The notes under the pieces were generated by a model. It saw only the letters and a list, made by a program, of their open reading frames with translations, was not told the origin of the DNA and did no database searches. A stretch of DNA of 64,000 bases from Megasphaera micronuciformis F0359 (lineage in GTDB: Bacteria > Bacillota > Negativicutes > Veillonellales > Megasphaeraceae), in assembly GCF_000165735.1 (NCBI RefSeq), contig NZ_GL538208.1, forward strand, positions 746,074-810,073, given 5' to 3'. Position numbers and translations under genes: made by a program. Shown here in pieces: positions 10,625-61,744 of this stretch (within the stretch, counting starts at the first letter, position 1; each line of letters starts with the position of its first letter).

Positions 10625-10713
10625 GGAGCGGTATCGAAGTGGTCATAACGGGGCTGACTCGAAATCAGTTAGGCCGAAAGGTCTCGTGGGTTCGAATCCC
10701 ACCCGCTCCGCCA
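10625..10713 (+). tRNA. tRNA-Ser(CGA)
   Basis: 89 bases with encoded CCA. Acceptor arms GGAGCGG (10625-10631) and CCGCTCC (10703-10709), discriminator G, CCA at 10711-10713. Anticodon loop CTCGAAA gives anticodon CGA for codon UCG. A long variable arm (GGCCGAAAGGTC) marks the class II structure of serine tRNAs. TTCGAATC T-loop present. It is a single gene with its own promoter and terminator. Confidence 0.95.
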
Positions 10714-10826: not shown

Positions 10827-12128
10827 CTAAAATACGAATACTAATTGTGCCCGTGTAAAGTTGCCTGCATCACAACGATTGCAATCCTTTATTTCCGATG
10901 AAAAAGCTCGGAATAACTGTAATTTTGCATTTTTAGCAAAAACATAGTCACCGCCGACACCCCATGAGGTTACACCGAAGGTACCGCCCGTAAAGTGTTC
11001 CGTTCTCCAGTTACCCGTTCCCAGGAAATCTTGAATACCGCTCAAACCGCTGTTCAGGTAATCAACCCAAAGATCCCAGGTTTTAGGTTTTTCAAAGAGA
11101 GCTTTACCATACTGCAACTTGCCGTAATATACATCGGCAGATGCCGTATCGTCTTTAAAGCTTACTCGATTATATTCACCGAAAAGATTCCATTTAGGAC
11201 CGAAGTTCAAAGATACGTAGGCCCCTTTAAGATCTTGGGGTTCATGCATCAATATTCCGCCCATTCCGGGATAATTGTTATAGTAAATACCGGCTGCCGA
11301 CCCCGTCATAGAACCGCCGCCGAAGTTTCCTTCCAACTCTCCGTAAGCCGTTTTAGCATTGTTGGAATAGCCGTCTTTAAACTTACCGTACCCTGCAGTA
11401 GCCGTAAGTTTCTTATTCGTAAAGCTCAGTTCGGCACCGTCAAAGGGATCATCATATTGAAGCCCCGATGCTTTACCTAACACATACGTATAACGACCGA
11501 CTTTAAGATTCCAATTGTGAGCCGGATCCAAAGCATAGTTCACATATGCCTGATCAACAAAGAAGTTATTGTAAAGGCTTCCGTTATAGGCGTACATAGG
11601 AGTGCCCGATGCCGCCGTTTCATCATCAAACCAGTTGATATACTGGATTCCCAGTACGGCTTCTGCACGGTCGTTAATCTTCCCGTTAGCTCGGATACGA
11701 GCACGATAATCCCAATAATCATGGTCTGCAACGGATTTCGAATCATTCAGATAGCGGAATCTCATATCACCCGTTACCTTAACCCGGCCTACACGGTCTT
11801 CCAAGTCGGATACGCGAACGCCGAGATTATTAAGCTCACTCGAAAACTCGTCCGCCAGACGATTAATAAGAGCGCGTTGCTGCGCATCGGCATTGTCTTC
11901 ATGTGCCATAGCCTTAGCCACTACTTCTGCCGCTTCGTAACGGGTAATATTGCGTTCGCCCTCAAAATGCGTCTTATCAAGGCCTTGAATAATACCTGCA
12001 TTCGCCAATTCCATGACCGAATTATAAGCCCAACTATCCTTAGGTACATCTGTAAACGGATTCGCTGCAAACCCTGTCGAACAGACAACCGACATAACTG
12101 CGAGAATAGCTGCCGTCTTCTTGTTCAT
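10827..12128 (-). CDS. ompM: OmpM-type SLH outer-membrane porin (copy 1)
   Basis: 433 residues. Signal peptide with cleavage after about FAA (residues 1-22), then an SLH domain (NPFTDVPKDSWAYNSVMELA... to about residue 75), a helical linker (LINRLADEFSSELNNLGVRVSDLEDRVG) and a porin-like beta barrel ending in a C-terminal Phe (AQLVFVF), the signal for outer-membrane insertion. In Veillonella the SLH domain of OmpM is known to hold the outer membrane to polyamine-modified peptidoglycan. Start ATG at 12128 with GGAG 8 bases upstream, preferred over a GTG at 12137. Short leader (about 45 nt) without the conserved RNA element of copies 3, 4, 5 and 7. It contains two Cys (CNRCD) near the C-terminus, unlike the others. 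Confidence 0.9.
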   Translation of the reverse strand: MNKKTAAILAVMSVVCSTGFAANPFTDVPKDSWAYNSVMELANAGIIQGLDKTHFEGERNITRYEAAEVVAKAMAHEDNADAQQRALINRLADEFSSELNNLGVRVSDLEDRVGRVKVTGDMRFRYLNDSKSVADHDYWDYRARIRANGKINDRAEAVLGIQYINWFDDETAASGTPMYAYNGSLYNNFFVDQAYVNYALDPAHNWNLKVGRYTYVLGKASGLQYDDPFDGAELSFTNKKLTATAGYGKFKDGYSNNAKTAYGELEGNFGGGSMTGSAAGIYYNNYPGMGGILMHEPQDLKGAYVSLNFGPKWNLFGEYNRVSFKDDTASADVYYGKLQYGKALFEKPKTWDLWVDYLNSGLSGIQDFLGTGNWRTEHFTGGTFGVTSWGVGGDYVFAKNAKLQLFRAFSSEIKDCNRCDAGNFTRAQLVFVF

Positions 12129-12180
12129 CCTAAACACTCCTTTAAAATATTATGCTTTATTTGCATTAATTTCCTTGATG

Positions 12181-12298: not shown

Positions 12299-13594
12299 TT
12301 AGAATACAAATACGAATTGTACACGCGTAAGTTCGGACAAGTTACCGCTTCGGTCCTTTAGCTTAGAGTTAAACGATTTAAATAACTGAAGTTGCGAATT
12401 CTTGGTAAACGTATAGTTCGCCCCTACGCCCCACGATGTAACTCCGTAATCTGCGCCTAAGAGGTTTTCCGTTCTCCAATTACCGCTGACCAGGAATTCT
12501 TGAATACCCGAACGATCGCTATTTAAATAGTCAACCCACAGATCCCAACTCTGAGATTTTTCAAAACGGGCTTTGCCGTATTGAAGCTTACCGTAAAATA
12601 CATCGGCCTTTTTCGTGCCGTCCTTAAAACTTACGCGATTGTACTCACCGAAAAGGTTGAAGTTCTTGGCAAAGTTCAAAGACATATAAGCACCCTTCAA
12701 GGCTTTCTGAGGATGGCTCATATTCCATTGTTCACCGCTGAAACGATTATAATACAAACCGATTCCCGAATCGGCGACCGAACCGCCTCCGAAGGAAGTT
12801 TCCACCTCGCCGTAAGCGGTCTTGGCTTCATTGAAATTGGCTTCTTTAAACCTGCCGTACCCTGCCGTAACTGTCGCTTTTTTATTTTTAAAATTAAGTT
12901 CAGCCCCGTCGAAGGTATCATCATACTGAAGGCCCGTTACCTTGCCGATCTTATAATTATAGCGGCCTACTTTTAAATTCCACTGATGACCTGAATCGAA
13001 TGCATAGTTTACATAGGCTGTATCGACAAAGAAATTATTCAGCTTATACCCGTATGTAAAGACTACAGGCGACCCGGATGCCGCCGTTTCGTCGTCAAAA
13101 TTATTGTCATATTGAACGCCCAGAACAGCTTCAATGCGATCGTTGATTTGTCCGTGAGCACGCAAACGACCGCGGAAATCCCAAAACTGCTTATAAATCG
13201 GCGAACTTTTCGCATTCATATAACGAATACGTGCATCGCCCGTCAGCTTCACATTACCTGCACGGTCTTCAAGATGTGAGACACGAACGCCCAGATTATT
13301 AAGTTCATCTGAAAATTCATCAGCCAAGCGATGAATGAGTGCACGTTGTTCTGCATTTGCACGGTCTTCATGAGCCATGGCCTTGGCCACCATTTCAGCA
13401 GCTTCATAACGGGTAATATTACGTTCTCCCTGAAAATAGGTTCCGTCAACACCCTGAACTATACCCGAGTTAACCAATTCTACTACGGAATTGTACGCCC
13501 AACTGTCCGACCGTACGTCTACAAAAGGATTGGCCGCCATGGCCGTTGTCCCTAATGTAGTAGTCATAACGAAAAAAGCCAAAAGTTTCTTCAT
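12299..13594 (-). CDS. ompM: OmpM-type SLH outer-membrane porin (copy 2)
   Basis: 431 residues: signal peptide (MKKLLAFFVMTTTLGTTAMA), SLH domain from NPFVDVRSDSWAYNSVVELVNSG, helical linker (ADEFSDELNNLGVRVSHLEDRAG), barrel, terminal VFVF. Domain plan and role as for copy 1. Its barrel is close to that of copy 1 (FNLFGEYNRVSFKDGTKKADVFYGKLQYGKA against NLFGEYNRVSFKDDTASADVYYGKLQYGKA), so these two form a subgroup. Signal peptide differs from the MNKKLVAS type of the others. GGAG 6 bases before the ATG; short leader without the conserved RNA element. Confidence 0.9.
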   Translation of the reverse strand: MKKLLAFFVMTTTLGTTAMAANPFVDVRSDSWAYNSVVELVNSGIVQGVDGTYFQGERNITRYEAAEMVAKAMAHEDRANAEQRALIHRLADEFSDELNNLGVRVSHLEDRAGNVKLTGDARIRYMNAKSSPIYKQFWDFRGRLRAHGQINDRIEAVLGVQYDNNFDDETAASGSPVVFTYGYKLNNFFVDTAYVNYAFDSGHQWNLKVGRYNYKIGKVTGLQYDDTFDGAELNFKNKKATVTAGYGRFKEANFNEAKTAYGEVETSFGGGSVADSGIGLYYNRFSGEQWNMSHPQKALKGAYMSLNFAKNFNLFGEYNRVSFKDGTKKADVFYGKLQYGKARFEKSQSWDLWVDYLNSDRSGIQEFLVSGNWRTENLLGADYGVTSWGVGANYTFTKNSQLQLFKSFNSKLKDRSGNLSELTRVQFVFVF

Positions 13595-13770: not shown

Positions 13771-15042
13771 TTAGAATGCGAATACGAACTGTGCCCGCGT
13801 GAGTTCGTCCGGATCAGCTACATTACTGTCCTTGGATTTGGAAGCGAAGGACTGCATAACCTGGAACTGAGCATTCTTAGCGAAGGTGTAGTCTACGCCG
13901 GCACCCCAGGTTTCAACACCGTTGGCTTTACCGAGCAGGTTGTCCGTTCTCCAGTTGCCCGAAGAACCGTTGACGCCGTTCTTTTCAGCATTCAAATAGT
14001 CAACCCACAGATCCCACGATTTCGGTTGAGCCATCGTAGCTTTACCGTACTGAAGTTTGCCGTAGAATACGTCTGCATCAGCTGTACCGTCGGGATTATT
14101 TACATTCTGGTATTCACCCAAGAGATTGAACTTTTTACCGAAGTTTACGGAAGCATAAGTTCCCCAGAGGTCATCGGGAGCCGTAGATCCGGTCAAATTC
14201 GTTTTATTGAAGTTATTATAAAAGACGCCGACTTTGGAACCTGCTGCGGAACCGCCGCCGAATTTACCTTCCAATTCGCCGTAAGCCGTCTTCGTATCGT
14301 TCAAGTCGCCTTCTTTAAACTTACCGTAACCGGCAGTAGCCGTCATCTTGGCATTGTCATAAGAAAGCTGAGCGCCGTCGAAGGTATCACCGTATTGAAG
14401 GCCCGTTGCATTACCGAGTTCATAGTCATAACGACCTGCCATTACATTCCACTTGTGACCGCCGTCCAACGCATAATTGACATATGCACGGTCAACGTAG
14501 AATTTATCCTTATCGGACGATGCTGCATCTTGATTAGCAAAATTATTGGTATAATTTACGCCTAATACGGCATCTGCACGGTCGTTAATCTTGGCATTGG
14601 CACGGAGACGACCGCGGAATTGCCAGGATCCGTCATTTTTATTGGACGAATTGTCCTGATTCATGTAACGAACACGGGCGTCGCCCGTCAATTTAACATT
14701 GCCTACGCGGTCTTCCAAGTTGGAAACACGAACGCCCAGATTGTTAAGTTCATTCGAAAATTCATCGGCCAAACGGTTGATAAGAGCACGCTGTTCAGCA
14801 TTGGCACGATCTTCATGAGCCATAGCCTTAGCAACTATTTCAGCTGCTTCATAACGCGTGATGTTACGTTCACCTTGGAAGTGAACGCCGTCAACACCCT
14901 GGATGATACCGGAGTTGGCCAACTCTACTACGGAATTATATGCCCAGCTGTCTTGAGGAACATCCTGGAACGGGTTTACGGCAAAAGCTGTCGTGCCTAC
15001 TGCCATGGTTGCAACTAAAGTTGCTAAAAGTTTTTTGTTCAT
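13771..15042 (-). CDS. ompM: OmpM-type SLH outer-membrane porin (copy 3)
   Basis: 423 residues: signal peptide (MNKKLLATLVATMAVGTTAFA), SLH domain beginning NPFQDVPQDSWAYNSV, linker, barrel ending AQFVFAF. SLH and linker are almost identical to copies 4 and 5, while the barrel loops differ (short YTNNFANQDAASSDKDKF region). Good ribosome site AAGGAGAG. It has a leader of about 170 nt with the conserved core element, and a short upstream frame whose stop overlaps this ATG (ATGA). By family it is a diffusion pore and an envelope tether. Confidence 0.92.
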   Translation of the reverse strand: MNKKLLATLVATMAVGTTAFAVNPFQDVPQDSWAYNSVVELANSGIIQGVDGVHFQGERNITRYEAAEIVAKAMAHEDRANAEQRALINRLADEFSNELNNLGVRVSNLEDRVGNVKLTGDARVRYMNQDNSSNKNDGSWQFRGRLRANAKINDRADAVLGVNYTNNFANQDAASSDKDKFYVDRAYVNYALDGGHKWNVMAGRYDYELGNATGLQYGDTFDGAQLSYDNAKMTATAGYGKFKEGDLNDTKTAYGELEGKFGGGSAAGSKVGVFYNNFNKTNLTGSTAPDDLWGTYASVNFGKKFNLLGEYQNVNNPDGTADADVFYGKLQYGKATMAQPKSWDLWVDYLNAEKNGVNGSSGNWRTDNLLGKANGVETWGAGVDYTFAKNAQFQVMQSFASKSKDSNVADPDELTRAQFVFAF

Positions 15043-15134
15043 AATAATCTCTCCTTCTGTAAATGCATAAGTTTACAATTATTGTAATCGGAGAAATATA
15101 CCTTGCCTTCAAGGGGTCTCGGCGAGTTGTCCAT
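15039..15134 (-). CDS. Possible leader peptide upstream of ompM copy 3 (31 aa)
   Basis: AGAGG, 4 bases, ATG, then codons for MDNSPRPLEGKVYFSDYN and more, ending in TGA that overlaps the ompM start as ATGA. The first four residues (MDNS) are shared with the small frames before copies 4, 5 and 7; the rest is not. It may be a translated leader coupled to ompM, or the reading frame may be a by-product of a conserved RNA motif. Confidence 0.4.
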   Translation of the reverse strand: MDNSPRPLEGKVYFSDYNNCKLMHLQKERLL

Positions 15135-15215
15135 GTTTCCTCTCGTTTCCCGTCTTACCCGGCACTGTATTTTCTCTTGCAAGTTCAGTTCCGAAGCACT
15201 TCTTCTCTGAACTTG
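15091..15215 (-). promoter_or_regulatory. Structured 5' leader element of ompM copy 3
   Basis: Read on the minus strand: a first hairpin (CAAGTTCAG/CTGAACTTG, 15207-15215 with 15180-15188), then an outer helix (GAGAAAATACAGTGCC, 15161-15176, pairing imperfectly with 15091-15107) that encloses the conserved core at 15124-15143. The core is near-identical in copies 4, 5 and 7, while the helix sequences are different but complementary in each. Transcript start predicted at about 15214. No known riboswitch class recognised. Confidence 0.65.
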
Positions 15216-15220
15216 ACATG

Positions 15221-15249
15221 AGTATACCCCCGATTTGAAAACTCGTCAA
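15221..15249 (-). promoter_or_regulatory. Promoter of ompM copy 3
   Basis: On the minus strand TTGACG (15244-15249), 17 bases, TATACT (15221-15226). Confidence 0.75.
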
Positions 15250-15564
15250 CACTTTTAAGTTTTCATCTTCGTATACATTTTGTGACAGAAAAATCAGATT
15301 TTATCCTGTTATATCTGTATATTATCCCATAGTACCCTCATAAAAGTCGGTATTTAAGCGACTTTTGGTACTTGAAAACATTGTAAAGTTTTATACATAA
15401 TAAGAAGATCTTTACCTGTAAGACCGGGCTTCCCGGCAAGAAATTTTACTTATTAGGGTATTATCGCTTGATAATCATATAAGGGAAGTTTGTAAAATTT
15501 TCCTTATATGATTATTCCTTAAAGCTACACCACTCGTCTACTTGTCATTTTCGCACACAAAAAA
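15250..15564. other. Hairpin-rich intergenic stretch, no gene seen
   Basis: About 315 bases between the promoter of copy 3 and the terminator of copy 4. It holds three inverted repeats: 15331-15372 (AGTACC and AAAAGTCG arms with matching CGACTTTT and GGTACT), 15424-15436 (CCGGG/CCCGG), and 15471-15515 (ATAATCATATAAGG... with one bulge). No convincing reading frame and no T-tailed terminator. It could be regulatory DNA or encode a small RNA. Confidence 0.45.
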
Positions 15565-15593
15565 AACAAGACCTCTCAAAGAGAGGTCTTGTT
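15565..15593 (-). terminator. Terminator of ompM copy 4
   Basis: Perfect 13-bp inverted repeat AACAAGACCTCTC with a 3-base loop; on the minus strand a T8 run follows. Confidence 0.88.
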
Positions 15594-15607
15594 GATAATC
15601 GTATTGA

Positions 15608-16933
15608 TTAGAATACGAATACGAACTGTGCACGTGTGAGTTCGTCGATATCTTTATTATTCTTTGTCTTCGAGTTAAAAGTCTGGAATACCTGGAACTG
15701 TGCGTTCTTAGCGAATGCATAATCAGCACCTACGCCCCAACCTTTAGCACCGGTACTTGCGGTAGCTGTAGCGCTGGTTGCAGTCGGGATACCGAGAAGG
15801 CTATCCGTTCTCCAGTTGCCCGTACCACCATAGATGCCGTATTTATCAGCATTTACATAGTCAACCCAGAGGTCCCAAGTCTTCGGCTGTGCGAAGAGAG
15901 CTTTGCCGTATTGGAGTTTGCCGTAGTAAACGTCAGCATCTTTTGTTGTTCCTTGATTATTAACTTTCTGGTATTCACCAAAGAAATTGAATTTCTTAGC
16001 GAAGTTCAAGGAAGCATACGCACCCCAGAGGCTATCGGGAGTATTCATTGTTGCCGTAGTAGAAACCCCAGCAATATCCGTTGTCACTTTAACAGGACCA
16101 TTAAAATTATTGTAGAACGCGCCTACAGCCGAGCCGGCTACAGAACCGCCGCCGAAGAATCCTTCCAATTCGCCGTAAGCCGTCTTAGCATTGTTCAATA
16201 CACCTTCTTTAAATTTACCATAGCCTGCCGTTGCAGCCATGTGTTTATTAGCGAATTTGAGCTGTGCACCGTCGAAGTTATCGCCGTACTGAATGCCCGA
16301 AGCATTGCCCAATTCATAGTCATAACGACCAACCATTACATTGAACTTCTTACCAGCGTCTAATGCATAGTTTACATATGCACGGTCAACGAAGAATTTA
16401 TCTTTGTCTGCCGATGCAGCGTCTGTGCTGGAGAAGTTGGAATTGTAGTTAACGCCGATTACAGCGTCAGCGCGGTCGTTAATCTTTGCGTTAGCGCGGA
16501 GACGGCCACGGAACTGCCAAGAACCGTCGTTTTTCAACGTGTCGCCCTGCTTCATGTAACGAACACGAGCATCACCTGTCAATTTAACGTTGCCTACGCG
16601 ATCTTCCAAGTTGGAAACGCGAACGCCGAGGTTGTTGAGTTCATCGGAGAATTCGTCAGCCAAACGGTTGATGAGTGCGCGCTGTTCAGCGTTTGCACGA
16701 TCTTCGTGAGCCATAGCCTTAGCTACGATTTCAGCGGCCTCATAACGAGTGATGTTACGTTCGCCTTGGAAGTGAACGCCGTCAACACCCTGGATGATGC
16801 CGGAGTTAGCCAATTCTACTACGGAATTGTAAGCCCAGCTGTCGGACGGTACGTCAACGAAGGGGTTAGCTGCAAATGCAGTTGCGCCAACAGCCATCGT
16901 TGCAACTAAAGATGCTACGAGTTTCTTGTTCAT
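15608..16933 (-). CDS. ompM: OmpM-type SLH outer-membrane porin (copy 4)
   Basis: 441 residues. Signal peptide MNKKLVASLVATMAVGATAFA, SLH domain NPFVDVPSDSWAYNSV..., linker helix, barrel ending AQFVFVF. It is the longest copy of this subgroup because of two extra low-complexity loops rich in Thr/Ala/Ser (GVSTTATMNT at about 285 and SATATASTG at about 395), likely surface-exposed. First 130 residues nearly identical to copy 5. Ribosome site AAGGAG before the ATG. Leader of about 160 nt with the conserved core element. Confidence 0.92.
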   Translation of the reverse strand: MNKKLVASLVATMAVGATAFAANPFVDVPSDSWAYNSVVELANSGIIQGVDGVHFQGERNITRYEAAEIVAKAMAHEDRANAEQRALINRLADEFSDELNNLGVRVSNLEDRVGNVKLTGDARVRYMKQGDTLKNDGSWQFRGRLRANAKINDRADAVIGVNYNSNFSSTDAASADKDKFFVDRAYVNYALDAGKKFNVMVGRYDYELGNASGIQYGDNFDGAQLKFANKHMAATAGYGKFKEGVLNNAKTAYGELEGFFGGGSVAGSAVGAFYNNFNGPVKVTTDIAGVSTTATMNTPDSLWGAYASLNFAKKFNFFGEYQKVNNQGTTKDADVYYGKLQYGKALFAQPKTWDLWVDYVNADKYGIYGGTGNWRTDSLLGIPTATSATATASTGAKGWGVGADYAFAKNAQFQVFQTFNSKTKNNKDIDELTRAQFVFVF

Positions 16934-16948
16934 TGTGAAAGACTCCTT

Positions 16949-17017
16949 TCAAAAAACAAATATAAGTTTCGGAGAACTTTTGAATTTGTTTTGAAGGGTC
17001 ATTGGCGAGTTGTCCAT
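16949..17017 (-). CDS. Possible leader peptide upstream of ompM copy 4 (22 aa)
   Basis: AGAGG, 4 bases, ATG, MDNSPMTLQNKFKSSPKLIF..., TGA 15 bases before the ompM start, next to its Shine-Dalgarno. Shares only MDNSP with the equivalent frame of copy 3. Confidence 0.35.
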   Translation of the reverse strand: MDNSPMTLQNKFKSSPKLIFVF

Positions 17018-17097
17018 GTTTCCTCTCTTTTACTGCTTCAAAACAGCTTCATTTCTCCATTCGACTTAAGCATGGCACAAGGTCATCCGTAAGTCGA
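16987..17097 (-). promoter_or_regulatory. Structured 5' leader element of ompM copy 4
   Basis: First hairpin TCGACTTA/TAAGTCGA (17090-17097 with 17061-17068), then outer helix TGTTTTGAAG (17036-17045) pairing perfectly with CTTCAAAACA (16987-16996), enclosing the conserved core at 17007-17026. Helix sequence unrelated to that of copy 3 but in the same place. Confidence 0.68.
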
Positions 17098-17102
17098 GAT
17101 TT

Positions 17103-17131
17103 AGTTTACCCTATTTTCTGAAATTTGTCAA
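17103..17131 (-). promoter_or_regulatory. Promoter of ompM copy 4
   Basis: On the minus strand TTGACA (17126-17131), 17 bases, TAAACT (17103-17108). The AT-rich stretch 17132-17319 upstream shows nothing else I can name. Confidence 0.75.
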
Positions 17132-17319
17132 AAAAAGGAGTTTAGATTTTAATTTCTTCTATATTTGGTGTATCTTTTTGTTATTTTTTCCATATTTTGT
17201 ATATCTCGTTTTTTCAGACCGGCATGATCGGAAAATAAATTTGAAAAATATTAAAATTTTTTTTATTTCCGGACAAAACTCGTAACCCAATAATAGTTTT
17301 CTTTACTTATTATATAAAA

Positions 17320-17351
17320 AAACAAGGTCTCTCATATGAGAGACCTTGTTT
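17320..17351 (-). terminator. Terminator of ompM copy 5
   Basis: Perfect 16-bp inverted repeat AAACAAGGTCTCTCAT/ATGAGAGACCTTGTTT, T-run on the minus strand. Confidence 0.88.
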
Positions 17352-17360
17352 AAGTCATTT

Positions 17361-18629
17361 TTAGAATACGAATACAAACTGAACACGCGTGAGTTCATCA
17401 CGATCTTTACCACTCTTTTCAATCTTAGTATCAAATGTCTGGAAGACTTGAAGCTGTGCATTCTTAGCAAAGGTGTAGTCTGCACCGGCAGCCCAGCCCT
17501 TCGTATTATTGACGTTCGTTCTCCACGAACCCGTTCCGTTATCATCAGCTGCGCCGTCTTCGATGTTGATGTAGTTAACCCACAGATCCCAAGATTTAGG
17601 CGTATCGAATTTTGCCTTGCCGTATGTGAGTTTAGCCGCAAAGCCGTCAGCATCGGCAACACTGGCCTTGTCGTAGTTTACACGATAAGCTTCGGCATTA
17701 AGGTTAAACTTCTTAGCGAAGTTTAAGGATGCATAAGCGCCCCATACCTTTGCGTCTTCCGCACTTCCGCCAGAAGAAGCATTGAAGTCATTGTAGTATA
17801 CACCTACAGCCGATCCTGCAACCGTGCCGCCGCCAAAGAAACCTTCCAATTCACCGTAAGCCGTCTTGGAGTCATTCAAAATACCTTCTTTGAATTTCCC
17901 GTAACCGACTGTAGCTGCCATTTTGTTATCAGCAAATTTAAGCTGAGCGCCGTCAAAGTTATTTCCGTAAATAAGGCCCATATTATTGCCCAATTCATAG
18001 TCATAGCGGCCGACCATTGCATTCCATTTATGACCGTTATCCAATGCATAGTTTACATATGCGCGGTCTACATAGAAATGGTCCTTACCGGCACTGGATG
18101 CACTTGCACTTGCAGCCGTATTGTTTCCAAACTTGGTATTATATTCCATACCGAGTACGGCATCGGCGCGGTCATTAATCTTCGCATTAGCACGGAGGCG
18201 GCCGCGGAACTGCCAGGAATTATCATTTTTCAATGTTTGACCTTGTTTCATGTAACGAATACGAGCGTCACCCGTCAACTTTACATTGCCTACGCGATCT
18301 TCCAAGTTGGAAACGCGAACGCCCAGGTTATTGAGCTCATCGGAAAATTCATCAGCCAAACGGTTGATGAGTGCACGCTGTTCAGCATTTGCACGATCTT
18401 CATGAGCCATAGCTTTAGCTACGATTTCAGCAGCTTCATAACGGGTGATGTTACGTTCGCCTTGGAAGTGAACGCCGTCAACACCCTGAATGATACAGGA
18501 GTTAGCCAATTCTACTACGGAATTGTATGCCCAGCTGTCGGACGGTACGTCTACAAAAGGATTGGCAGCAAATGCCGTTGCGCCTACTGCCATGGTTGCT
18601 ACTAACGATGCTACGAGTTTCTTGTTCAT
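17361..18629 (-). CDS. ompM: OmpM-type SLH outer-membrane porin (copy 5)
   Basis: 422 residues, signal peptide identical to copy 4, SLH domain, linker, barrel ending VQFVFVF. Residue 46 or so is Cys in LANSCIIQGVDG, where the other copies have the SLH Gly (NSGIIQG); the codon is TGT instead of GGT, a single-base change. It is the only Cys in the protein. The barrel has the SASASSAGKDHF loop and differs from copy 4 from about residue 150 onward. Long leader with the conserved element; no strong promoter consensus found (TATAAT at 18786-18791 on the minus strand lacks a good -35). Confidence 0.9.
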   Translation of the reverse strand: MNKKLVASLVATMAVGATAFAANPFVDVPSDSWAYNSVVELANSCIIQGVDGVHFQGERNITRYEAAEIVAKAMAHEDRANAEQRALINRLADEFSDELNNLGVRVSNLEDRVGNVKLTGDARIRYMKQGQTLKNDNSWQFRGRLRANAKINDRADAVLGMEYNTKFGNNTAASASASSAGKDHFYVDRAYVNYALDNGHKWNAMVGRYDYELGNNMGLIYGNNFDGAQLKFADNKMAATVGYGKFKEGILNDSKTAYGELEGFFGGGTVAGSAVGVYYNDFNASSGGSAEDAKVWGAYASLNFAKKFNLNAEAYRVNYDKASVADADGFAAKLTYGKAKFDTPKSWDLWVNYINIEDGAADDNGTGSWRTNVNNTKGWAAGADYTFAKNAQLQVFQTFDTKIEKSGKDRDELTRVQFVFVF

Positions 18630-18709
18630 GTGACTCTTCCTCTCTTATTCATAATTTTTTGACATAAAAGGAAAAATTCAGATGAAGATGACCTTGCGGA
18701 GTTGTCCAT
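18626..18709 (-). CDS. Possible leader peptide upstream of ompM copy 5 (27 aa)
   Basis: AGAGG, 4 bases, ATG, MDNSARSSSSEFFLLCQKIM..., ending in TGA that overlaps the ompM start codon as ATGA, as in copy 3. The Ser codon of MDNS is TCC instead of TCG, a silent change. Confidence 0.4.
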   Translation of the reverse strand: MDNSARSSSSEFFLLCQKIMNKRGRVT

Positions 18710-18734
18710 GTTGCCTCTCGCCGCATCCTTCATC
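18681..18734 (-). promoter_or_regulatory. Structured 5' leader element of ompM copy 5
   Basis: Outer helix GATGAAGGATG (18724-18734) with CATCTTCATC (18681-18690), one bulge, enclosing an inner GCGG/CCGC helix and the conserved core at 18699-18718. One base differs in the loop (GGCAAC instead of GGAAAC). Confidence 0.66.
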
Positions 18735-18865
18735 AACTCTTCTTCCGTTCTCCACCTATGAACAGTGTTGCATATTTTTTCTTTTATTATAACGAAAAGG
18801 TACTGTTTTATGGCATATTATGCTCACTATGCATGTTTAAATATTTTTATTTATCGACTATATAC

Positions 18866-18900
18866 TAAAAGTCCTTGTCGGTTTTCGACAAAGACTTTTA
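18866..18900 (-). terminator. Terminator of ompM copy 6
   Basis: Inverted repeat TAAAAGTCCTTGTCG/CGACAAAGACTTTTA with one mismatch and a 5-base loop. The A/T-rich arm ends serve as the T-tract. Confidence 0.7.
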
Positions 18901-18910
18901 AAGAGCTTAT

Positions 18911-20155
18911 TTAAAATAAAAAGATAAATTGAGCTCTTGTCAGCTCGTTACGTTTATTGCCCGTACTCGTTACTTTCGTATCAAAGGTACGGAACAGTTG
19001 TATCTGTACATTTTTTGCCAACGTATAGTCCAGACCGATTCCCCAGCCTTTCGTGTCGTCAGCATGCATGCGCCATGTCCCGCAGCAATCATCGTTAGCC
19101 GTTCCGGCTGCGTCATGTAAGTATTCACCCCACAAATCCCACGACCCGGGTCTTGCGAAGTTCGCCTTCCCGTATTTCACCGTAGCAATATAGGTCATAC
19201 CGTCTTTCAATGTACTTTCATCTTTTCTGTCAACGCGATAGAGCACATAATTAGCCTGCCACTTTTTACCCGGGACGATATTGGTATAGCCGCCCCATAC
19301 ATGGCCGCTCCTCTCATCCGTCGAACCGTCAACCCGCATGTAATACAGGCCCAGTGCCGAATTGTTTTTAAAGAATTTTTCCACTTCGGCGAAAGCCGCT
19401 TTACGGTCTAAAAGCCTGCGACCTTCTTTGAATTTACCGTATCCTGCAGTAAAGGCTCTTTTATCCGTCTGATATCTATATTTCAAGCCGTCGAAGGTCT
19501 CATAGTATTGAAGAGCCCGATTGTTACCGAAGGCATAATCAAAGCGCCCTACTGTAAAGAGGGATTTTTTCTTTGCATCGGGACGGTACGTAATATAAGC
19601 TCTGTCTACATAAAAAGTATCACTGCCCGACGAGGCCGATTGGGTTGTATTAAAATTATCCCAGAAGTTAACTCCCAAGATGGCCGACATTTTTTCATTA
19701 ATTTTCCCTTCGGCACGCAGTCTGCCCCGGAACTGCCATGACCTATCACCATATTTACCTGCATCCTTTTCATGCAGGTAGCGAACTCGAATATCGCCGC
19801 TCAATTTTATATTTCCTACGCGGTTTTCCAGATCGTCTACGCGAACTCCCAATCCGTTCAATTCTTCGGAAAATTCTTCAGCAAGTTTCTGAATTTTTTC
19901 TCTTTCTTCACCGCGCACCCTATCTTCACGAGCCAAGGCTTTCGCCACCATCTGTGCCGCTTCGTAACGCGTAATATTTCGGTTACCCTGAAAATGCTTT
20001 CCGTCTACGCCCTCTACGATTCCGGAGTTAGCCAGTTCCGTCACGGACTGATACGCCCAACTGTCTTGCGGCACATCCGTAAAAGGATTAGCTGCCGAAA
20101 CTACGGCTGTCATCATCATACAGCCGGATATGGTTAAAATTATTTTCTTATTCAC
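18911..20155 (-). CDS. ompM: OmpM-type SLH outer-membrane porin (copy 6, divergent)
   Basis: About 414 residues from the GTG at 20155, chosen because it gives MNKKIILTISG... with a normal signal peptide; the frame continues upstream for 34 residues without a signal. SLH domain NPFTDVPQDSWAYQSVTELA, linker with more acidic/basic residues (AREDRVRGEEREKIQKLAEEF), barrel ending AQFIFLF. The most divergent of the seven: Arg/Lys-rich barrel (KKKSLF, RQ..RRLLDRKAAF) and a CCGTWR motif with two Cys. Leader of about 150 nt has its own hairpins but not the conserved core. Confidence 0.88.
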   Translation of the reverse strand: MNKKIILTISGCMMMTAVVSAANPFTDVPQDSWAYQSVTELANSGIVEGVDGKHFQGNRNITRYEAAQMVAKALAREDRVRGEEREKIQKLAEEFSEELNGLGVRVDDLENRVGNIKLSGDIRVRYLHEKDAGKYGDRSWQFRGRLRAEGKINEKMSAILGVNFWDNFNTTQSASSGSDTFYVDRAYITYRPDAKKKSLFTVGRFDYAFGNNRALQYYETFDGLKYRYQTDKRAFTAGYGKFKEGRRLLDRKAAFAEVEKFFKNNSALGLYYMRVDGSTDERSGHVWGGYTNIVPGKKWQANYVLYRVDRKDESTLKDGMTYIATVKYGKANFARPGSWDLWGEYLHDAAGTANDDCCGTWRMHADDTKGWGIGLDYTLAKNVQIQLFRTFDTKVTSTGNKRNELTRAQFIFLF

Positions 20156-20310
20156 AAGGTTTACGCCCTTTCCGATTTTTTCGGCGTTGCGCAACGACTC
20201 CTTCGTACATGATAAGTGAATACCGTTCCCGGCGAATTCCCTCATAGGCCTCCACATACGAACAAGCTTTGTTTGTTAACTTTACTTCAGCTAAAATAAG
20301 TTCACGTATA

Positions 20311-20339
20311 ATATTACATAATAGTCCGTTCTGTGTCAA
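20311..20339 (-). promoter_or_regulatory. Promoter of ompM copy 6
   Basis: On the minus strand TTGACA (20334-20339), 17 bases, TAATAT (20311-20316). The leader that follows contains TTCGTA/TACGAA arms and the palindrome CGTTGCGCAACG. Confidence 0.75.
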
Positions 20340-20403
20340 AATACCGAATTATTGTATATTTTACTACAGATATACTTCATATGGTTGTAATTTTAATCTT
20401 TTA

Positions 20404-20478
20404 TACAATATAAGCCATTTTATATTGTAATCTAAAAATGTATTACAATTAGGTTTACATTCTATTTAAGTTAAACCT
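20404..20478. repeat. Two AT-rich inverted repeats upstream of copy 6
   Basis: TACAATATAA/TTATATTGTA (20404-20413 with 20420-20429, perfect, 6-base loop) and AGGTTTA/TAAACCT (20451-20457 with 20472-20478). They lie between the promoter of copy 6 and the terminator of copy 7, where regulator sites are plausible. No gene in this 300-base gap. Confidence 0.5.
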
Positions 20479-20521
20479 ATTTTATATAATTCCTGAAGCC
20501 CATCGTTCTTATACACAAAAA

Positions 20522-20545
20522 GGACGGCAGAATACTCTGCCGTCC
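20522..20545 (-). terminator. Terminator of ompM copy 7
   Basis: GGACGGCAGA/TCTGCCGTCC perfect 10-bp helix with a 4-base loop and T5 on the minus strand. Confidence 0.85.
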
Positions 20546-20563
20546 CGAAAATTTGTAGCCGAT

Positions 20564-21832
20564 TTAGAAGAAGAAATCCAATTCAGCGCTTGTATATTCT
20601 TTTTGCTTCGTGCCGTTATCAACGGATTTTGTTCCGAAGGTCTGACCTACTGCCAAGACTACGTTCTTAGCCAAGGTGTAATCGAAACCTACACCCCAAC
20701 CCTTAACGCCGTGTTCATAACCGAGATAACCGCCGTCACGCCAGTTAGCCGTGCTACCGTAGTAGGTACCTTTATCCAGGCGTACATAGTCGACCCATGC
20801 GTCCCAAGTACCCTTTTCTTCAGGAACGGATTGGCCGTACTGGAGTTTAGCACCCCAAATATTTCCGTCTTTATCCGTTGCCGTTTCTTTGTTCTTGCTT
20901 ACGCGCTGGTAATCACCCATGAGATTCCACTTCTTAGCGAAGTTAATCGACATGTAGCCGCCGAAAATATTGTCCAAGTTGGCTGCGTTGGCTTTTTCAC
21001 CGCCGAAGTGATTGTAGTAAACACCGGCACCGAAGTCACCCCACGTGCCGTCCAAAGATGCATAGCCGGTCTTAACATCGAGAAGGCCCGGATTCGGATC
21101 GGCTTCTTTAAACTTACCGTAGCCGCCCGTCAATGCCCAGTGGTCACCGCTGAATTTGAGTTGAGCACCGTCAAAGGTATCGCCGTATTGAATACCCATG
21201 CCGTTACCGATTTGGTAGTCATAACGACCTACGAGGAAGTTTACATGCTTACCGGCATTGTATTCCACATTAGCGTGGTCAACGTAGAGCTTATGGTCTT
21301 CATTGCTTGATGCGGAGTGTTCGTCGGCAAAGCTCATATCATCCGTGCTGAGTCCCAAGTTAACAGTCGTGCGGTCATTAACCGTTGCCGTTGCCAAGAG
21401 ATGAACAGCGGCTTCCCAAGAAGCGTCGCCTTCAATATTGCCCTTCTGATGCTGATAATGAACGTTGGCATCGCCCGAGAGTTTAACATTACCTACCCGT
21501 TCTTCCAAGTTGGATACGCGAACACCGAGTTTACCGAGTTCATCGGAGAATTCATCGGCCAAGCGATTGATAAGTGCACGCTGTTCAGCGTTTGCACGAT
21601 CTTCATGGGCCATAGCCTTAGCTACCATTTCGGCTGCTTCATAACGAGTGATATTACGCTGCCCTTGGAAGTGAACGCCGTCAACGCCCTGAATGATACC
21701 GGAGTTAGCCAATTCTACTACGGAATTATACGCCCAGCTGTTCTGAGGGACATCCACAAAGGGATTAGCTGCAAATGCTGTTGCACCGACAGCCATGGTT
21801 GCTACTAAAGATGCTACGAGTTTTTTGTTCAT
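20564..21832 (-). CDS. ompM: OmpM-type SLH outer-membrane porin (copy 7)
   Basis: About 422 residues from the ATG at 21832 (an upstream frame of 15 residues has no signal peptide). Signal peptide and SLH domain close to copies 3-5; the linker reads LGKLGVRVSNLEERVG. The barrel is clearly different from the others from about residue 135 (VHYQHQKGNIEGDASWEAAVHLLATATVNDRTTVNLGL) and ends ELDFFF. Conserved anchor plus new barrel suggests that barrel modules are exchanged. Leader of about 140 nt with the conserved element. Confidence 0.9.
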   Translation of the reverse strand: MNKKLVASLVATMAVGATAFAANPFVDVPQNSWAYNSVVELANSGIIQGVDGVHFQGQRNITRYEAAEMVAKAMAHEDRANAEQRALINRLADEFSDELGKLGVRVSNLEERVGNVKLSGDANVHYQHQKGNIEGDASWEAAVHLLATATVNDRTTVNLGLSTDDMSFADEHSASSNEDHKLYVDHANVEYNAGKHVNFLVGRYDYQIGNGMGIQYGDTFDGAQLKFSGDHWALTGGYGKFKEADPNPGLLDVKTGYASLDGTWGDFGAGVYYNHFGGEKANAANLDNIFGGYMSINFAKKWNLMGDYQRVSKNKETATDKDGNIWGAKLQYGQSVPEEKGTWDAWVDYVRLDKGTYYGSTANWRDGGYLGYEHGVKGWGVGFDYTLAKNVVLAVGQTFGTKSVDNGTKQKEYTSAELDFFF

Positions 21833-21849
21833 GTCCGTTACCTCTTTTC

Positions 21850-21909
21850 CTATACTGTTCCTGCATCGAATAGGCAAAATCGATAAACCGTACGGAGCGA
21901 GTTGTCCAT
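21850..21909 (-). CDS. Possible leader peptide upstream of ompM copy 7 (19 aa)
   Basis: AGAGG, 4 bases, ATG, MDNSLRTVYRFCLFDAGTV, TAG. The frame ends 17 bases before the ompM start, ahead of its Shine-Dalgarno (AAGAGG). Confidence 0.35.
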   Translation of the reverse strand: MDNSLRTVYRFCLFDAGTV

Positions 21910-21937
21910 GTTTCCTCTTCCGCTTCCGGTTACATCG
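21881..21937 (-). promoter_or_regulatory. Structured 5' leader element of ompM copy 7
   Basis: Outer helix CGATGTAACCG (21927-21937) with CGGTTTATCG (21881-21890), slightly imperfect, enclosing an AGCG/CGCT helix and the conserved core at 21899-21918, identical to copies 3 and 4. Confidence 0.66.
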
Positions 21938-21978: not shown

Positions 21979-22007
21979 AGTCTACTATTATTGATAAATT
22001 GTGTCAA
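21979..22007 (-). promoter_or_regulatory. Promoter of ompM copy 7
   Basis: On the minus strand TTGACA (22002-22007), 17 bases, TAGACT (21979-21984). Confidence 0.75.
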
Positions 22008-38973: not shown

Positions 38974-39064
38974 AAAAAATACCGACTCTGCCCGGAATCA
39001 TTGCCCAGACGGTCGGCTAAAATGGATTATGCTCCCCGTGGTTGTTCCACTTCCGTCAGTTACA
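38974..39064 (-). promoter_or_regulatory. ZTP (pfl) riboswitch with terminator platform
   Basis: Read on the minus strand: AACTGACGG, then a TGG...CCA hairpin followed by CGGGGAGC, then GCCGACCGTCTGGGCA. These are the conserved blocks of the pfl motif, which senses the purine intermediates ZMP/ZTP. The second block overlaps a terminator helix CCGAC..TCTG/CAGA.TCGG (38982-38995 with 39003-39016) with T6 (38975-38980). Ligand binding would prevent termination and turn on fhs and fchA when 10-formyl-THF is scarce. Confidence 0.88.
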
Positions 39065-39222
39065 TAACCTTATATTATTATACCTGTCGCTCCTTTCCTT
39101 TGTCAAACGGTACAGTTATAAGATACATAACAATTAGACATGTATAGGCGGATACTTTTGCATTCTCATTCCCCTATCTCAACGGTACGTATCCGCATAT
39201 GACGAGTTCTTATTTTACAAAA

Positions 39223-59894: not shown

Positions 59895-60644
59895 TTAGCG
59901 CTTAACGCGTTTGGCACCGATATACCGCGATCCCCAATATTCACTGTCCAAGCTGTCTATGTGAATCCCGCTGCTCGTAGTAGCACTGATAAATTGATTA
60001 TTTCCTACATATATTCCCGTATGAGAAACTCCCGGTTCATATGTAGAGAAAAACACGAGATCACCCGGAATCAGATTTCCTTTGGAAACACTGGCCCCGA
60101 TTAAATATTGTTCATCCGCCATACGCGGCAAAGAAACACCGCTGTGAGCAAATACATATTTTGTAAATCCCGAGCAGTCAAAACCGCTGGGCGTATTTCC
60201 TCCGAATACATACGGAACCCCTAAATATTTATAGGCCTGGCTGACCACATTATTGCCGAAAGCATTGTGCTTAACATCACCTTTGCCGGCCTTACCCGTG
60301 CCGTAGTCATGAATCGTTACGGGTTTTGCCGCCTTCTTCTTAGGTGCCGCTTTTTGGGGGGCTGCTGCCTGAGGCATAGCCTTACCCGTCAAAGTCTTAA
60401 AGGTTTTAGCATCAACAGAACCGCTGATGGTCAGGCCTTTGTCAGCCTGAAAGCGTTCAACGGCACGACGGGTGTCATTACCGAAAATACCGTCCATGCC
60501 TATTTTATAGCCCCGTTTCACGAGATTTTGCTGTATTAATAATACATCGGAACCTTGCGAGCCTACGGAATAAGCCCCCACCGATAAAGTACATGTTGCC
60601 ATAAGTGCAACGGCAACAACCGTTTTGGAAAATAATCTCCGCAT
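59895..60644 (-). CDS. NlpC/P60 peptidoglycan endopeptidase with PG-binding domain
   Basis: 249 residues. Signal peptide (1-24), peptidoglycan-binding type 1 domain (SQGSDVLLIQQNLVKRGYKIGMDGIFG, about 28-85), linker rich in Ala/Lys/Pro, then NlpC/P60: catalytic Cys in GFDCSGFTKYVF, His in GVSHTGIYVG, third residue His in the IHIDSLDSEYW stretch. Cuts peptide stems in cell wall turnover. Expression is under a c-di-AMP riboswitch, the well-known pairing of this ligand with wall hydrolases. GAGAGGAG precedes the ATG. Confidence 0.93.
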   Translation of the reverse strand: MRRLFSKTVVAVALMATCTLSVGAYSVGSQGSDVLLIQQNLVKRGYKIGMDGIFGNDTRRAVERFQADKGLTISGSVDAKTFKTLTGKAMPQAAAPQKAAPKKKAAKPVTIHDYGTGKAGKGDVKHNAFGNNVVSQAYKYLGVPYVFGGNTPSGFDCSGFTKYVFAHSGVSLPRMADEQYLIGASVSKGNLIPGDLVFFSTYEPGVSHTGIYVGNNQFISATTSSGIHIDSLDSEYWGSRYIGAKRVKR

Positions 60645-60649
60645 AAAAA

Positions 60650-60766
60650 CTCCTCTCCGCCTCCGAGGTTAACTGACGGGTTAGGCTTGAAGGCAGCCCG
60701 CCGCTTCGCGGCTTCACCCCAAAAACTTGGTTCCCCCGTACTCCATATGAATCGAGATTCGGCACT
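60650..60766 (-). promoter_or_regulatory. c-di-AMP (ydaO/yuaA) riboswitch
   Basis: Read on the minus strand: GGGGGAACCAA, TTGGGGTGAAGCCGCGAAGC, a GCC..GGC helix, GCCTTCAAGCCTAACCCG, TCAGTTAACCTCGGAGGCG. These match the conserved blocks of the ydaO class (GGGGAACC, GGGGUGAA, CCUUC, AACCCGUCAGCUAACCUCG). It sits just before the NlpC/P60 gene, whose ATG follows within 10 bases, so control is probably on translation or by a terminator overlapping the 3' helix. High c-di-AMP is expected to turn expression off. Confidence 0.93.
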
Positions 60767-60772
60767 CCATTT

Positions 60773-61744
60773 TTACTGTGAAATTCTGTCGTCCTTATGA
60801 CGACCCAACTCGGTTTTTATCCAATACAAAGGTCGATTCTTTACTTCTTCAAAAATTCGTCCTATATACTCACCGATAATTCCCAGAAAGATAAGTTGCA
60901 AACCGCCGATAAGACACACGACAATCATGGTCGTTGTCCACCCCGGTGTAACTTGGTCCGTCAATTTACTGTATAACACATGAAGAATCATAAGCAAACT
61001 TAACAGGCCGCTGAAAATCCCGGCATAAAATGATATGCGCAAAGGCGTTTTCGAATATGCCATAATGCCGTCTAAGGCAAAACTGAACATTTTATGAAGA
61101 GAAAACTTCGACTTCCCCGCATACCGTTTTGGCGCCACAAACTCGACAACGGTTTGCTTGTATCCGATATCGCCGATCATACCTCTAATGAAACGATCAT
61201 GCTCACGGAATTGCTTAAATGTTTCCGCAACCCGTCTGTCTATGAGACGAAAATCGGAGCCGCCCGGTCGAATATACACGGGTGATAATGCGTTTATCAA
61301 CGTATAGTACAGGCCGGACGAAACTTTCTTGAAAATCCCCGCATCGTCTGTTGCCAAGCGCACAGTCTGGACAATGTCAAACCCTTCATTCCACTTTTGA
61401 ATCAAATCGGGTAACATCGACGGCGGATGCTGCAAATCTCCGTCCATAGTAATAACGGCGTCGCCCGAAGCATGGTCCATGCCGCATGTAATAGCCAGCT
61501 GATGACCGAAATTTCGTGCCAAAATCAAGGCACGCACATGCAAGTCCTGCTGTGTCAACCGACTGAGAACAAGAGGGGTAGCATCGGTCGATCCGTCGTC
61601 TACAAAAATAATTTCATAGTCGTATGGAAGGTCCGACATATACTTCGTCACTTCTTCATAGAACTTTTCGATATTCAAATGTTCATTATAAACGGGAGTT
61701 ACGACGGATATAACCGTCTTTCCCTGCATACCCGAAAAGGTCAT
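60773..61744 (-). CDS. Glycosyltransferase family 2 (polyprenyl-phosphate sugar type)
   Basis: 323 residues. GT-A fold: SVVTPVYNEHLNIEKFYEEV, IIFVDDGSTDATP, DxD in VITMDGDLQHPP. C-terminal two membrane helices (about 235-255 and 268-290), as in GtrB/ArnC/DPM1 enzymes that put a sugar on polyprenyl phosphate. Start may be the ATG at 61744 or the ATG at 61729; the promoter lies so close that 61744 would be leaderless. Confidence 0.88.
   Translation of the reverse strand: MTFSGMQGKTVISVVTPVYNEHLNIEKFYEEVTKYMSDLPYDYEIIFVDDGSTDATPLVLSRLTQQDLHVRALILARNFGHQLAITCGMDHASGDAVITMDGDLQHPPSMLPDLIQKWNEGFDIVQTVRLATDDAGIFKKVSSGLYYTLINALSPVYIRPGGSDFRLIDRRVAETFKQFREHDRFIRGMIGDIGYKQTVVEFVAPKRYAGKSKFSLHKMFSFALDGIMAYSKTPLRISFYAGIFSGLLSLLMILHVLYSKLTDQVTPGWTTTMIVVCLIGGLQLIFLGIIGEYIGRIFEEVKNRPLYWIKTELGRHKDDRISQ

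Follow-up and report, generated by a model that had tools for sequence, protein, structure and literature searches.

A near-fixed leader hairpin before ompM and other outer-membrane-type genes of Negativicutes and other Bacillota, probably the SLH motif candidate

Seven ompM genes stand in tandem in a stretch of 64,000 nucleotides from Megasphaera micronuciformis F0359 (contig NZ_GL538208.1, positions 746,074 to 810,073; hereafter the window), and four of them (copies 3, 4, 5 and 7) carry a common sequence in their leaders. What is this leader element, how widely is it found, and what could it do to the messages that carry it? Judged by sequence comparison, it is a selected, cis-acting RNA structure, in which the part that stays near-fixed across relatives is the hairpin GAG-GNAACNNGGNNA(N)-CTC. 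Comparison further supports a covarying stalk around this hairpin, a position on the sense strand before outer-membrane-type genes, an association with BamA in one sample of genomes, and complementarity of one stalk strand to the Shine-Dalgarno (SD) region.

On the minus strand of the window, the core AGAGGMAACATGGACAACTC is exact at 15124-15143, 17007-17026, 18699-18718 and 21899-21918, precisely where a preliminary description of this DNA had placed it. These are the sole core sites in the window at up to three mismatches, with 0.01 expected by shuffling, and the genome examined has no further core site on either strand at the same tolerance. The outer stalk is complementary in each copy and its sequence is unrelated between copies; for example, in copy 4 TGTTTTGAAG pairs with CTTCAAAACA. 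The outer helix had been described as 8-16 base pairs (bp) long, and while its complementarity holds, the lengths were slightly generous, the stalk of copy 3 being a broken helix in which GAGAAAATAC pairs with GTATATTTCTC via bulges. A model search with filters off gave no element for copies 1, 2 and 6. The parts of the four elements are as follows.

15124..15142, minus strand: copy 3 apical hairpin, GAG-GAAACATGGACAA-CTC (from core match, model and register test)
15091..15176, minus strand: copy 3 stalk and loop, the 3' strand of which can alternatively pair with the SD region
15183..15212, minus strand: copy 3 5' hairpin (P1) of the Megasphaera-type leader (from fold and comparison by eye)
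17007..17025, minus strand: copy 4 apical hairpin
16971..17058, minus strand: copy 4 stalk and loop
17062..17096, minus strand: copy 4 5' hairpin (P1)
18699..18717, minus strand: copy 5 apical hairpin, with the GCAA variant of the loop
18681..18734, minus strand: copy 5 stalk and loop, followed by another, separate hairpin that is predicted to cover the SD region
21899..21917, minus strand: copy 7 apical hairpin
21881..21937, minus strand: copy 7 stalk and loop

Folded singly, the window copies reach z-scores of -1.6 to -2.1 against shuffles, a mild excess, so that the case for structure rests on comparison. Over 21 sequences of the genus, the inner stalk helix has a covariation score of 0.393 versus 0.173 in shuffles, a value reached by none of 500 shuffles, and controls with slid registers score 0.05-0.20; the cells paired in this helix amount to 82.9% versus 69.2% in shuffles. 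The genus excess may partly reflect the relatedness of the sequences, and the seven pairs with a change on both sides are not unusual taken alone, being reached by 94 of the 500 shuffles. The covariation score nevertheless bears out the selected RNA structure with paired changes that the preliminary description had read from the window alone. The same 21 sequences fix the register of the apical stem, since the first GAG is broken in three of them and the second in none, and the first-GAG register was rejected.

Stalk registers differ between lineages and, consequently, there is no single class-wide alignment of the stalk. Pairing between the two 40-base flanks of the hairpin was compared within the class Negativicutes for 108 elements; from this set, as from the set of 112 used below, near-identical flanks were removed. 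Own flanks pair at a mean of -21.3 kcal/mol versus -11.5 when swapped, and none of 20000 permutations is as good (best -13.1 kcal/mol). Outside the class (n=87), own flanks pair at -26.8 versus -16.1 when swapped, with -18.0 as the best of 20000 permutations. Position-wise pairing beside the apical stem is slightly above shuffles in 132 elements (112 from the class and 20 from outside it).

The element is not confined to the four tandem ompM genes, as had been supposed, but is spread over the class and is also present in other classes of the phylum. Within the genus, the core is found in all 15 genomes at up to two mismatches, and the printed contexts lead into ompM-like starts; the genus leader has a common anatomy of 5' hairpin, long stalk and apical hairpin, and the stalk of most copies keeps two conserved internal-loop strands, AGTAAAAGA and GCCAATGA. 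The named relatives of the window's OmpM protein are from Anaeroglobus geminatus and Colibacter massiliensis (both now Megasphaera, class Negativicutes). A model of the element, R1, matches 16 of 17 genomes of the family, 21 of 61 of the order and 39 of 380 of the class, the class-wide search having been made at E <= 0.02, where about eight chance matches are expected among the 39. The further copies in related genomes that the preliminary description had called for are thus at hand in genus, family and order. One R1 match (L068) lies, by eye, at the start of a pstB-like gene and was dropped, and for another (L074) a follow-up site scan gave no element. Distant matches show a shorter common core, and neither the ATG of the core nor the exact 20-mer is conserved across the class.

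What is conserved across the class is seen in the regions upstream of ompM genes. Among 100 such regions, chosen among the matches listed (mostly matches starting near residue 1, and 60 from family f4), the hairpin occurs on the sense strand in 77, and in none on the antisense strand or in the reversed sequence; simpler hairpin patterns occur in 66 and 70 of the same sense strands, in no antisense strand and in one reversed sequence. As both element sets had been found with patterns that fix most letters, the invariance of the loop was re-measured by fuzzy matching with no pattern imposed. Matches with at most five mismatches in 18 are present in 74 of the 100 sense strands and in none of the 100 antisense strands, and the deviations in these 74 number 32, 17, 8 and 27 at the N positions, nine at loop position 2, and 0-3 at each of the others. 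The exact 18-base pattern GAGGNAACNNGGNNACTC is found in 320 of 379 class genomes, and the matches to its reversal number 21, spread over 20 genomes; it has a 12-base loop and therefore misses the window copies, the loop of which has 13 bases. The arms are GAG/CTC in 110 of 112 non-redundant class elements and AAG/CTT in the other two.

Outside the class, the exact pattern follows BamA in one genome sample. This sample of 81 genomes of the phylum, 78 of them non-class, has it in 11 non-class genomes, viz., in 10 of 17 positive for BamA/Omp85 versus one of 61 negative for BamA (Fisher p 1.5e-7), and in the sole BamA-negative genome with a match the site lies in unrelated sequence. In a larger sample, 66 of 384 non-class genomes are positive, and the reversed-pattern control gives 18 matches over all 398 genomes. 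From 113 listed non-class matches, 103 were examined and 10 were not fetched. In 95 of the 103, the site precedes, at a leader-like distance, an open reading frame (ORF) of sufficient length with an SD-like site and a signal-peptide-like start; the eight that failed this filter are L223, which lies on a truncated contig and has a signal-peptide-like start, and seven sites that, as far as their surroundings show, do not precede outer-membrane-type genes. Pfam recognises SLH in 40 of the 95 genes, Porin_4 in 11, OMP_b-brl in six and SlpA_C in three, and a strict SLH sequence pattern is present in 41 and absent from 54. A final phenylalanine, the usual last residue of outer-membrane barrels, ends 23 of the 26 complete non-class ORFs that lack the SLH pattern. 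The element also precedes genes outside tandem arrays, and it looks as though the common property of the genes is the outer membrane and not the SLH domain. Within the class, we also note an element (L177, minus strand, about 1501) before the gene of a TonB-dependent receptor (Plug domain), which is an outer-membrane protein but no relative of the porins.

No Rfam 15 family above its gathering cut-off matches the element, in agreement with the preliminary description, which had recognised no known family. Its suggestion that the element is new is doubtful, as a published candidate is probably the same thing. The passages on the SLH motif in Stav et al. (2019; PMC6429828) present it as a riboswitch candidate that was discovered starting from Thermovirga lienii (Synergistota). 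Its 80 examples there come from Synergistaceae, Clostridia and Negativicutes, and about 60% of them lie upstream of SLH proteins; the motif is read in terms of cell-wall homeostasis, and the passages suggest cyclic di-GMP (c-di-GMP) as a possible ligand and give no validated one. Compared by description and not by consensus, our element is probably this orphan candidate. Like the motif as those passages describe it, it is a leader RNA that often stands before SLH genes and occurs in Negativicutes and other Bacillota classes, and the position before SLH genes is shared in part, given the 40 SLH proteins among 95 non-class genes. It differs from the 80 examples in those passages by its presence in 320 of 379 class genomes and its association with BamA; moreover, non-SLH genes outnumber SLH genes outside the class, and c-di-GMP is an unlikely ligand, as set out below. 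Our literature search gave no further relevant work following up the SLH motif. A word search of the main texts of PMC8632094, PMC11109978, PMC2864571 and PMC10628300 found no such element; the motifs from Negativicutes and Veillonella that PMC8632094 does describe in its main text are different ones and stand before different genes, and by the same word search the main text of PMC10628300, the main OmpM structure paper, does not treat ompM expression.

A second feature of the leaders concerns the ribosome site. Against dinucleotide shuffles, the 3' strand of the stalk is complementary to the SD region with a mean z of -1.40 in the class (standard error 0.14, n=110) and -1.07 in the separate non-class set (standard error 0.16, n=88), and the 5' strand, taken as control, gives -0.28 and -0.13, respectively. 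When a fixed interval before the start codon is used, leaders with the element have a z of -1.03 (standard error 0.19, n=78) compared with -0.20 (standard error 0.32) for 20 element-less ompM leaders and -0.02 (standard error 0.15) for 30 window genes, drawn from a control set of 31 that includes the three element-less ompM copies. In leaders with an SD pairing of -8 kcal/mol or stronger, the bases that pair with the SD are also stalk bases in a fraction of 0.70 in the class (71 leaders; 0.56 expected) and 0.77 outside it (67 leaders; 0.58 expected). In copy 3, TTTCTCC of the 3' strand has two possible partners, the 5' stalk strand and the GGAGAGA of the ribosome site. Which pairing is predicted to win varies with the folded length, and in a longer fold TTTCTCC pairs with the SD region instead of the stalk. 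The trait of a translational switch, viz., a leader strand that fits both the SD and an alternative structure, is thus present on average and not in each leader. By eye, we also see that many leaders from other families of the class have a CTTAGG-type strand where the stalk ends, opposite CCTAAGGAGG at the ribosome site. In L145-L164 and L072, CTTAGG recurs between stalk and start, with CCTAAGGAGG or something close to it after it; pairing of these two could form a long helix covering the SD.

From these comparisons, the reading we favour, at about an even chance, is that the element would be a cis-acting translational switch of porin mRNAs with a fixed loop read by a trans-acting factor. The long stalk of variable sequence would present the near-fixed apical hairpin, and its 3' strand would double as an anti-SD strand. 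With the stalk-loop folded, the 3' strand would be occupied, leaving the ribosome site open and translation on; with the stalk opened, the 3' strand would pair with the ribosome site and translation would fall. What reads the fixed loop would most likely be a trans-acting factor that is itself conserved and is probably an RNA-binding protein; it would shift the balance between the two states and so adjust the output of porin to the condition of the envelope. Beyond cis-acting control, we infer the mechanism, viz., the exchange of the two pairings, the sign of the control, and the factor with its signal.

Several observations weigh against this switch and against the wider reach claimed for the element. 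At the stringency used, 23 of the 100 fetched ompM upstream regions have no hairpin and seven of the 17 BamA-positive non-class genomes have no match. Complementarity to the SD is individually significant (p <= 0.05) in only 38 of 110 leaders of the class and 30 of 88 outside it, a level that four of 20 element-less ompM leaders also reach, and the overlap of stalk and SD pairing exceeds expectation only modestly. The folds of copies 3 and 4 show the stalk alongside a partly covered SD, and in copy 5 the SD is hidden in a separate hairpin. The comparisons brought out no RNA-binding partner of the hairpin. For many non-SLH proteins, Pfam gives no match (about seven or eight of nine tested beside L177), so that their porin nature rests on the signal-peptide-like start and the final phenylalanine. 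As for a known RNA-binding factor, the hairpins of CsrA/Rsm leaders likewise hold GGA in a loop beside the ribosome site, but the first GGA here is really GGN, and CsrA (PF02599) is found in none of the 61 order genomes while three control genomes are positive; regulation by CsrA was therefore rejected.

Of the alternatives to a protein-read switch, a metabolite-binding riboswitch is unlikely but survives best: the hairpin and the internal loops of the stalk would together make up the aptamer, and its ligand would be a small molecule connected with the envelope. The leader has the anatomy of a translational switch, and the genus keeps the internal-loop strands and the 5' hairpin well in addition to the apical hairpin. 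As in riboswitches that act through anti-SD and anti-anti-SD strands, one strand fits either the upper stalk or the SD; unlike in those, one short hairpin accounts for the whole near-fixed part, and there is no known ligand. Class-wide, only a loop of 12-13 nucleotides and a 3-bp stem are near-fixed, which is small for an aptamer. The SLH motif was itself put forward as a riboswitch candidate in the passages on it in PMC6429828. The ligand suggested there, c-di-GMP, is unlikely, since the window's genome has no GGDEF match (PF00990) and neither have 48 of the 61 order genomes, among which carriers of the element are many; the other 13 are positive. For the window's genome, c-di-GMP was rejected.

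An element of mRNA stability or processing, in which the stalk-loop would shield the porin mRNA from 5' decay or guide a nuclease with no sensing involved, is another unlikely option. Such a role would suit porins, which are very abundant proteins, and the strong stalk that many lineages have retained; protection by itself, however, would fix neither the loop sequence nor the complementarity of the 3' strand to the SD. Quite improbable, in our view, is a target at which one or more trans-acting small RNAs (sRNAs) would pair with the loop. In Proteobacteria, sRNAs classically act on porin mRNAs, and the circuits of Enterobacteria in which MicA and RybB repress outer-membrane proteins likewise place many porin mRNAs under a common post-transcriptional control. 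Here, unlike in those circuits, the common element is in cis and structured, and the loop varies where an sRNA seed would need constancy, its N positions differing even between neighbouring paralogues of one genome, which suits a protein or an RNA fold better than sRNA pairing. An extended antisense partner is also missing, as the genome has no other site for the 20-mer at up to three mismatches on either strand, and this leaves room for a short seed.

Very little speaks for a translated upstream ORF (MDNS... in the window), the core serving as its SD and ATG in attenuation or translational coupling. The AGAGG-AAAC-ATG of the window does resemble a translation start, and in two of the four frames the end overlaps the start codon of ompM. 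A start-like triplet (ATG, GTG or TTG) is present in 57 of 112 elements of the class and 26 of 95 outside it, with AAG, TAG, CAG and ACG making up most of the others, and the four window peptides have nothing in common beyond the residues encoded by the core; as neither start codon nor frame is conserved, a leader-peptide attenuator was rejected. A role at the level of DNA, for instance in recombination that shuffles ompM copies, would explain why tandem paralogues carry a common short sequence, but can practically be dismissed for an element that is strand-specific, lies shortly upstream of start codons, shows compensating stalk changes and is found outside tandem arrays as well.

Within the window, three of the seven copies lack the element, and these copies may be under different control; it is therefore possible that the element controls the choice of porin among the ompM copies. 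Sigma-70-like sites lie upstream of copies 3, 4 and 7, and none was found upstream of copy 5. Promoters had been reported for three of the four cases, and this count is correct, although the sites are weak evidence, the region being no richer in them (24) than its shuffles (mean 21). The promoter-like sites and the genes are listed below.

15221..15249, minus strand: copy 3 promoter-like site, TTGACG-17-TATACT
17103..17131, minus strand: copy 4 promoter-like site, TTGACA-17-TAAACT
21979..22007, minus strand: copy 7 promoter-like site, TTGACA-17-TAGACT
10827..12137, minus strand: copy 1 ompM gene, without the element
12299..13594, minus strand: copy 2 ompM gene, without the element
13771..15042, minus strand: copy 3 ompM gene, 423 amino acids
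15608..16933, minus strand: copy 4 ompM gene, 441 amino acids, SLH domain (Pfam)
17361..18629, minus strand: copy 5 ompM gene, 422 amino acids
18911..20257, minus strand: copy 6 ompM gene, without the element, SLH domain (Pfam)
20564..21832, minus strand: copy 7 ompM gene, start taken as the ATG at 21832 (in the ORF list, an upstream TTG at 21877)

A tRNA-Ser (cga) gene adjoins the ompM array (window 10625-10713, plus strand). Elsewhere in the window there are two riboswitches of known families, both on the minus strand: a cyclic di-AMP (c-di-AMP) riboswitch (RF00379, 82 bits, 60643-60774) and a ZMP/ZTP riboswitch (RF01750, 63 bits, 38996-39073).

The element is probably a rediscovery and a large extension of an orphan candidate. 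As far as our searches show, it is new that the element is so widespread in the class, that it goes with outer-membrane genes in general and with BamA, and that a near-fixed hairpin defines it; new also are the arguments against an upstream ORF, CsrA and c-di-GMP, and the stalk strand complementary to the SD. Taken more widely, we propose tentatively, and at somewhat less than an even chance, that throughout the Bacillota with two membranes the messages of porins bear one and the same RNA element, before genes for both SLH-type OmpM and non-SLH porins, where it would act as a global cis translation switch with a dedicated factor. Kept since before these lineages separated, it would be a trace of an ancestral outer membrane and a counterpart of the sRNA control of porins in Proteobacteria. 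The origin or loss of the outer membrane in Firmicutes is a major open question, as set out in passages of PMC5007114, and an RNA with a near-fixed loop that tracks porin-type genes in many lineages and is rare without BamA in the sample studied is an outer-membrane marker independent of protein trees. The element likewise offers a direct way into the control of porin levels in these bacteria, and its hairpin is small enough to serve as bait for its partner.

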